Part shown: positions 1,186-3,559 of the stretch, piece by piece
Layout of the letters: the number at the start of each line of letters is the position of its first letter
How positions within the stretch are numbered: position 1 is the stretch's first letter
NCBI GenBank assembly: GCA_021797825.1
Contig: JAJZZA010000035.1
Location: 1-33,874 of the forward strand
Origin: Bacillota bacterium
GTDB taxonomy: Bacteria; Bacillota; Sulfobacillia; Sulfobacillales; Sulfobacillaceae
Reading direction: 5' to 3'
DNA: 33,874 bases
Notes under the pieces: generated by a model
What the model was told of the DNA's origin: nothing
What the model saw: the letters and a program-made list of their open reading frames with translations, nothing else
The model's database searches: none
Program-made: the position numbers and the translations under genes

Positions 1186-1217
1186 GGGGGCCTATGCAAA
1201 GCTTTGCATAGGCCCCC
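1186..1217. repeat. 32-bp perfect palindrome at the left end of the MITE-like element
   Basis: Five G (1186-1190), the terminal repeat CCTATGCAAAG, its complement CTTTGCATAGG and five C (1213-1217) form an uninterrupted 16-bp self-complementary arm. The left five G belong to the reverse transcriptase codons. The palindrome therefore either uses the target's G run or the element carries its own CCCCC matching it. Confidence 0.9.
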
Positions 1218-1235
1218 CTATGCGAAGCAAGTAAC

Positions 1236-1298
1236 TATGCAAAGTAAACCCTGAAAAAGTGCCTGTTACTGGACACATGCCTCGATTTACTTTGCATA
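1236..1298. repeat. 63-bp inverted-repeat module 1 of the MITE-like element
   Basis: TATGCAAAGTAAA at 1236-1248 and its exact reverse complement TTTACTTTGCATA at 1286-1298 enclose 37 bases. The geometry matches module 2 exactly. The paired 13-bp arms look like binding sites for a recombinase or transposase, which is inference. Confidence 0.85.
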
Positions 1299-1418
1299 AT
1301 GTGTCTGGCTGCCGGAGCTGAAAAACCAGTGACAGACCGTCAAATGTCTTATGTTTCGACTAAAGGAGGTGTTTTTCGGGGTTCGGGGCGGCGATGCCGA
1401 CCGTTTTCCTCAGCTTAT

Positions 1419-1481
1419 TATGCAGAGTAAACTCAGCGCAAATACCTTGAAACCGGCGTGTGCGACCATTTACTTTGCATA
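1419..1481. repeat. 63-bp inverted-repeat module 2 of the MITE-like element
   Basis: TATGCAGAGTAAA at 1419-1431 (one change from module 1) and TTTACTTTGCATA at 1469-1481 enclose 37 bases. Total length and core length are identical to module 1, although the core sequence is mostly different. Confidence 0.85.
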
Positions 1482-2174
1482 GTCTCCCGCTTTGCATAGG
1501 GCGGACCTCTGTCGCCGCTCCTGGCCAACGTGCTGCTGGATGAAGTGGACCAGGACTTACAACGGCGTGGGCATCGCTTTGCACGATATGCCGATGACTG
1601 CAACGTCTACGTTCGCAGCCAGAAGGCTGGCGAGCGGGTACTGCTCTCGCTTAGGAAGCTTTACGACAAGCGCCACCTGAAGGTGAACGAGAAGAAAACC
1701 GAAGTGGGACCGGTCTTTGGCCGCAAATTCCTTGGCTATTGCCTACGGCGGTGGTCAAAGGACACGGTCAAGATCGCCGTCGCGCCCAAGGCGCTCGACA
1801 CGTTCAAGCAACGCATCCGGCTCATCACAAGTCGGGTCGGCGGCAACGGCATGACCCAGATCGCTGAACAGATGCAGGCATACCTGCCGGGCTGGAAGTC
1901 CTACTTCCGTCTCGCGCAGACCCCGCACATCTTCAAGCATCTGGACTCATGGACGCGCCACCGCCTGCGGGCGATCCAACTCAAACACTGGCGCGTGGGC
2001 ACGACTGTCTACAGTCGTCTCCGGGCGCTTGGTGCAACTCATGAGCTGGCCGCTCAAATTGCTGGCGGTGCTGGGCATTGGTGGGGACACAGTGAAGCAG
2101 GTCTGAATCGTGTCCTTACCGTCAAATACTTCGACGATCTTGGAATACCTCGACTCACATGACCTCAACTTCTC

Positions 2175-2278: not shown

Positions 2279-3559
2279 CTACAGGAGGCCAGCGGTCCGT
2301 GAGGGTGTCATCGATTGCCGCGTCAGCTTAGGGCGACGTGGCACCTTTTCGATGGGGCCTTCCGCCCAGAGCATTTTGGCGCGTAACACCTCGAAGCTAT
2401 AGCCGCGATCCATACGGTCCGTCGCCCGAATCAGGCTATTGAGGCTCTCCGTGTACCCATTCGTGACGGGATGGGCAAAATACGCCAAGATTTCCCCCTG
2501 CCAGTGTTTCCAAGCGGTAAGCACCTCCCCAAACGCCTCGCGGATCTCCCCTGACAACGCCTGTTCCCATGCCACAAACCGTTGCTCGGCCTGCGCACGA
2601 CTTGTGGCCGCATACAGACCAAAAAAGGCTTCTTTGGTCTGGTGCACTGCCCCAAGTACGGGATAATTTTTGACCCATGCCGATAACAGCAGTGCCTCCT
2701 GATCAGTCAGGTCCGCTGTGCGCTTAAGCAAGATAAACCGGTCATGCATGAGCCCGCGCCGCTGGGCGGGGGAGAGCGCGATCCGCAACTATTTTCGCAC
2801 CTGCTCGACGGCGGCATTGGCCATTTTCACCACATGAAACTTGTCCACTACAATCGTCGCCTGGGGCAATACGGCGCGGACGGCCTCTTTATACGGACGC
2901 CACATATCCATCGTGACCACGGCGATGCGGTCCCGATGCGGGATGTGGGATAGATAGCGCATGATCGTGTCTTTATTGCGATTGACTAAGATGTCCACAA
3001 GCGTCCTTTCCTGGACATTGGTTATTACGGCACGGGGCCGGATGAGGTGAATTTCGTCGAGGCCCAACCATGTGGGCGTTTCTACGCGACGACTCTCCTC
3101 CCAACGAGCGACCGCCTCTTTAAAAATTTGCCGGACGGTGCCTTCGCTGGCTCCCACGTCCTCGGCGATGTGCACAAAGGGGCGCCGCAAGGCTTCCTGG
3201 GCAATCCATGTCACCAATCGCTCCGTCATCAGCCGCTTGGCATCCACCGCCGGCAACGTTTCATAAAAGGTTCTGCCGCAGACCTGACAGCGAAAGCGAC
3301 GGGTTTGCAGATATAACGCCACCCGCTTGCCATGCATGGGAAGGTCCTTGATCCATTGCGTCCGGCGACCAAACCCCACGAGCTGAACGGCGTGGCAATG
3401 CGGGCATGCTGCCAACCCATCACTCGTTTTTGCAGAAACGTGGTAGGCATCGTCTATCTTACGAACATCCGTGATCACGTATCCAGGAAGATTCAAGAGA
3501 TTCGGCATCGATTGCAATGGCGTGCCTCTCAAAGGTATTTGTAGCGTCGATCCAATCAT
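2279..3559 (-). pseudogene. ISL3-family transposase with an in-frame amber stop
   Basis: A cut-and-paste transposase of about 425 codons read from 3559 down to 2279. The N-terminal zinc finger is seen as CPHC and CQVC, then an HTH region. The DDE domain has WLGLDEIHLI, VTMDMWRPYKEAV and VVDKFHVVKMAN in the first part and GYTESLNSLIRATDRMDRG (the Glu) in the second. A TAG at about 2789-2791 (EQVRK-stop-LRIAL) interrupts a frame that continues perfectly on both sides, so the break is a single nonsense change. The likely native start is the ATG at 3508 (MPNLLNLPGY, the family's usual beginning) and not 3559. I found no matching pair of terminal inverted repeats. The sequence is otherwise undecayed, so inactivation looks recent. 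Confidence 0.85.

Follow-up and report, generated by a model that had tools for sequence, protein, structure and literature searches.

The 306-bp element at positions 1193 to 1498 of the window, a stretch of 33,874 nucleotides from a Bacillota contig, is very probably a non-autonomous derivative of a RIT (recombinase in trio) element that has lost ritA, ritB and ritC, has kept the recombinase sites of both ends, and appears to have been integrated in trans into a group II intron RT gene (Table 1). RITs are defined by three overlapping tyrosine recombinase genes in that order (PMC3414803), and the window element, which holds no ritA, ritB or ritC, lacks the three adjacent overlapping tyrosine recombinase genes of an autonomous RIT. 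In the ORF list, no ORF of at least 80 aa is confined to its interior. The ends are common with full-length RITs, the arms and their spacing being those found in the trio-bearing L018, L082 and L083, and the identity to an end of L082 is 86% over 72 bp.

Table 1. Predicted features of the element and of the RT gene that it interrupts (positions in the window).
Feature	Position	Strand	Basis
Group II intron RT/maturase gene, 5' part, to the GTPQGG codons	478–1191	+	TIGR04416 positions 2–182 (2–185 in the genome search); Pfam RVT_1
Crossover core at the RT 5' junction, AGGGGGCC, Q-GG codons	1185–1192	+	Position common to relatives; joining 1192 to 1507 restores the frame
Palindrome P, TATGCAAAG.CTTTGCATA, two abutting half-sites	1193–1210	.	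Perfect repeat; same element and offset in many RITs
Second core, inverted form, GGCCCCCC	1211–1218	-	Reverse complement matches the direct core at 7/8
Left outer arm TATGCGAAGC, 17 bp outside the inner arm	1219–1228	+	Offset 17 in 51/57 RIT ends
Left 63-bp module: inner arm, 37-bp core, inverted inner arm	1236–1298	.	Repeats; spacing class 60–63 (ATG to CAT)
Interior after loss of the recombinase genes	1299–1418	.	ritABC at the equivalent place in relatives
Right 63-bp module	1419–1481	.	Repeats; contig C67, same genome, matches 74 bp of the right end at 99% identity
Right outer arm GCTTTGCATA	1489–1498	-	Inverted repeat
Crossover core at the RT 3' junction, GGGCGGAC	1499–1506	+	Junction sequence
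Same RT gene, 3' part with the maturase domain, starts GGPLSPLLAN	1500–2162	+	TIGR04416 from position 181; Pfam GIIM

The two modules each consist of 13-bp arms around exactly 37 bases. In the left one, TATGCAAAGTAAA (1236–1248) and TTTACTTTGCATA (1286–1298) are complementary at 13 of 13 positions, and in the right one, TATGCAGAGTAAA (1419–1431) and TTTACTTTGCATA (1469–1481) at 12 of 13. The original prediction of two equal 63-bp inverted-repeat modules with unequal cores is thus correct to the base. Allowing up to two mismatches, the module 13-mer occurs in 4 copies in the window, against 0.14 on average and never more than 1 in shuffles, and among 1000 dinucleotide shuffles of the element any such module was found in 6 and two separate modules of equal span in 0, which rules out chance as the source of the modules. 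The heptamer that was also thought to form the element termini turned out to be two distinct things; it does form the outer arms, but its leftmost copy belongs to the separate palindrome P.

When GTDB genomes were scanned for inverted pairs of CTATGCAAAGTAAA with the gap left free between 20 and 45 bases, six loci were found and every gap was 36 or 37, so the genomic check proposed for the arm pairs gave the expected geometry. Locus L018 from Paenibacillus koleovorans, a contig of 3.4 kb, has two modules that enclose three overlapping tyrosine recombinase ORFs, and all three inferred proteins match Pfam Phage_integrase. The complete genome of Candidatus Formimonas warabiya contains a locus, L082, with the recombinase trio and both ends. 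A second gene-less copy of about 345 bp is present in Paenibacillus alkaliterrae (L014), and its two module cores are similar to those of the left and right modules in RIT L018. With the trio between the modules in L018 and L082 and another relative that is gene-less, the window element is best read as an internally deleted RIT. The catalytic residues R164, H264, R267, H290 and Y299 are invariant in ten RitC sequences of relatives, and the closest solved structure is XerD. The anticipated recombinase gene near full-length relatives is therefore the trio of L018, and its place between two modules supports the earlier preference for paired protein-binding sites of recombinase type over a hairpin. 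A search of plasmid DNA with the element gave two weak 41-bp matches only, both in Halorussus, and a looser arm pattern matched 4 of 398 genomes of the phylum, where L089 and L090 lie in RT genes and L047/L094 and L048 are at most candidate RIT ends.

Like the MITEs of insertion sequences, the window element is short and gene-less, has terminal inverted repeats and has presumably been moved in trans, and some insertion sequences have several repeats per end. That it should be a MITE of an insertion sequence with a DDE transposase and multi-repeat ends is nevertheless highly improbable, as the relatives with these ends carry tyrosine recombinases and one exact target site is used in all of them, and not varied sites; the window element thus differs from such MITEs both in its origin from a tyrosine recombinase element and in its target. 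A multi-repeat end of IS21 type was likewise considered and set aside in view of the recombinase trio in L018.

The spacing of the ends was counted in 55 non-redundant RitC-side (right) flanks from plasmids, viral contigs and a few genomes, with ATG..CAT arms that match at 8 or more of 10 positions over a span of 40–100; by this criterion 19 of the 55 flanks have no arm pair. A total of 57 arm pairs were found, against 1.3 in shuffled flanks, with 26 at 60–63 bp, 7 at 71–73, 14 at 77–80, 9 at 88–90 and 1 elsewhere, which means that 56 of the 57 fall at 60–63 or 71–73 bp or at those values plus 17, in bins that were chosen post hoc and named after the data had been seen. The offset between outer and inner arm, scanned at 12–23, is 17 in 51 of 57 ends, and the longer pairs (77–80 and 88–90) are therefore those between an inner and an outer arm. 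The inner classes of 60–63 and 71–73 are about 11 bp apart, corresponding to one helical turn, as expected of duplex-bound proteins, and as judged from these sequences the spacing is a phasing of protein sites that would face the same side of duplex DNA and not a hairpin. The window modules are 61 bp by the ATG–CAT measure, or 63 with the flanking T and A, and belong to the main class. The constant spacing foreseen for other copies holds for those with TATGCAAAG arms, with modules of 62–64 bp, but 63 bp is not universal because the second spacing class is one helical turn longer. A plain hairpin was set aside given the helical spacing classes.

Two other functions for the modules were considered. 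As single strands the modules fold with -10.9 and -9.1 kcal/mol, a property that sites of the integron attC type, recombined as folded single strands, should have, but there is no GTTRRRY motif in or near the element (the nearest is at 1974), the classes one helical turn apart point to proteins bound to duplex DNA, and the junctions are outside the modules, so that attC-like sites can hardly be what the modules represent. The modules might instead be mainly operators for the transcription of ritA and not parts of a recombination complex, since the left one is located directly upstream of ritA in full elements; this is improbable because the same module also follows ritC, with no gene there whose transcription it could start, and because both modules are kept in gene-less copies (the window and L014). 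The 63-bp module would rather be an inverted, helix-phased pair of inner sites that is probably bound by recombinase when the synaptic complex is assembled. The modules themselves are not the crossover site, and the crossover is outside the outer arms.

The window RT gene is broken in the conserved GTPQGG (PQGG) codons, with a match to profile TIGR04416 to position 185 upstream and from position 181 downstream. Joining base 1192 to base 1507 gives an empty site with one uninterrupted RT frame of 456 aa, reading SEGTPQGGPLSPLLAN, and in-frame empty sites are also found in L044, L046 and L097. Intron RNA domains are located upstream of the interrupted RT (Rfam). In tblastn searches with the RT halves, the RT alignment stops at PQGG/PQGS or restarts at GGVISP/GSVVSP-type residues at the element ends. 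Insertions at these RT codons are those in the window and in C51 and C67 of the same genome, in L014, L015, L019, L087, L089, L090, L044, L097, L046 and L104, and on both sides of L082; the full-length RITs with ritABC and such ends that lie at these codons come from Bacillota, Rhodococcus (L044, L097), an Agrobacterium pTi (L046) and an IMG/VR contig (L104). A RIT recombinase acting in trans would have integrated the gene-less element at the PQGG codons, thereby breaking the gene. The RIT of L082 is flanked on either side by the 5' half of a different RT gene, the two halves being inverted relative to each other, and each of its ends has a palindrome; recombination between two insertions probably gave rise to this arrangement.

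The RT-targeting RITs group in a single, moderately supported RitC clade (90/69; 88% of bootstrap trees), and other RITs are inserted in other conserved codons, namely Walker A of an IstB ATPase (L117, with the 3' part in L093), PYSPES of an rve transposase (L084 and L092) and DAQxWGVPQRR of a C5 cytosine methylase (L148). Additional targets are an HK97 gp10-like gene (L107) and another ritC gene (L116). Comparison of these junctions suggests a clade-specific homing of RITs to conserved codons, and with a conserved motif of a widespread gene family as target, a target would nearly always be available.

The 8 bases that separate the target from the outer arm can be read as RT codons; in the window they are AGGGGGCC at the 5' junction and GGGCGGAC at the 3' junction, which is consistent with strand exchange near the left edge of this 8-bp core. 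Each end would then consist of an outer half-site beside the core. The RT 5' side, and only that side, has an extra palindrome of 18–20 bp followed by the core in inverted form. Of the 10 RT 5' junctions that could be read, 9 have this arrangement (window, L014, L044, L046, L082 twice, L087, L097 and L104), C51 being the one without, and it also occurs on one side only in many RITs that target other genes. The inverted and the direct core match at a mean of 6.0 of 8 positions over 28 loci, compared to 2.7 in permutations. L044 and L097, two near-identical RITs, point in opposite directions within RT genes that are themselves near-identical, and both have the palindrome on the 5' side of the RT. 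Five viral contigs (L184–L188) have the palindrome with element arms on both sides; they look like a RIT that abuts the end of another element and not like a circle junction, and were not taken as evidence for the double site, and a stricter RT-specific double-site pattern gave no matches in viral contigs.

In our interpretation, the RIT carries a symmetric double attachment site that has the palindrome at its centre. The circular form would have the order arm4-c-arm1.arm2-c'-arm3, with two inverted crossover sites back to back, and integration through either half would give opposite orientations, while the polarity of the core would leave the palindrome on the target 5' side. Such a symmetric site would account for RITs that are found in either orientation and yet keep the palindrome on the RT 5' side. 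The palindrome and the inverted core should then be the remains of the double attachment site of the circular form. The model needs no separate inversion step, and core' could preserve the sequence of an earlier target, of which L014 would be a case.

The main alternative concerns the palindrome and leaves the rest of the RIT reading as it is. Under it, every insertion event would create palindrome P and the inverted core anew through a local inverted duplication at the 5' junction of the target, by snap-back replication or from a hairpin end. Such a duplication would fit the frequent exact match between the inverted core and the inverse of the direct one, the strong fold of single-stranded P (-17.6 kcal/mol, z -5.8) and the unusual one-strand routes that have been proposed for the related SE and Tn554 (PMC10214605). 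The inverted and the direct core, or the two halves of the palindrome, differ in several loci, however, for example L014, L087 and L104, and in L084 and L088 P is not identical to the outer arm beside it, suggesting that P is inherited and not freshly copied, and we regard the duplication as rather unlikely, although it is the strongest competitor of the double attachment site. As a general proposal, RITs may integrate through a double site of two inverted crossover sites that share a 20-bp palindromic centre, with clades tuned to conserved-motif codons in widespread gene families that are mostly other mobile elements (group II intron RT, IstB ATPase, rve transposase, C5 methylase and ritC), a proposal that in our judgement has an even chance of being right.

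The full-length relatives resemble the RITs of Cupriavidus metallidurans in having an overlapping trio, a length of about 3.5 kb, terminal inverted repeats and a location inside genes of mobile elements (PMC2864759, PMC3414803), unlike which the window copy is without genes. Published RIT insertions are in radC and in a Tn6049-like transposase gene (PMC2864759, PMC3414803), and the PQGG target in RT, the phased 63-bp modules and the one-sided palindrome with its inverted core have no counterpart in the accessible parts of the same two descriptions. The working of the trio has been called difficult to understand, with no convincing binding sites found (PMC3414803), and RITs have been given 34-bp terminal repeats, with target specificity and movement listed as not tested (PMC10214605). 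SE, GInts and Tn554 also use tyrosine recombinases and several recombination proteins, are target specific and have a short junction core, which is 6 bp in SE and Tn554, but their gene sets differ and the accessible parts of the sources describe no comparable palindromic double site (PMC10214605, PMC5385486). RITs themselves are known, and a literature search gave no report of RT-targeting RITs, gene-less RIT derivatives, phased modules or a double attachment site, so the RT target, the site anatomy and the double-site model appear to be new as judged from the accessible literature. The phased modules, the crossover core, the palindrome and the predictable empty site provide concrete DNA substrates for the first RIT assays, and RITs would inactivate group II introns and other mobile elements naturally and with codon precision.

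The host genome has nine fragment matches to group II intron RT, three of which are cut at the PQGG position, and a profile search of the whole genome gave no group II intron RT match reaching the family cut-off. No intact RIT with arms of the window type was found in it, the RIT recombinase matches being of other types or fragments, and contigs C51 and C67 end inside elements of the window type. The 3' end of a second group II intron is located at 56–126 of the window (Rfam Intron_gpII), just upstream of the interrupted intron, and two group II introns seem to lie in tandem at the start of the window. At 2279–3559 on the minus strand there is a transposase-like gene, which we take to be of ISL3 type, and which is broken into two ORFs at 2788/2789. 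An 80% identical copy of the element interior (window 1291–1408), without any arms, is located at about 1752–1864 of L013 (contig C131 of the same genome).
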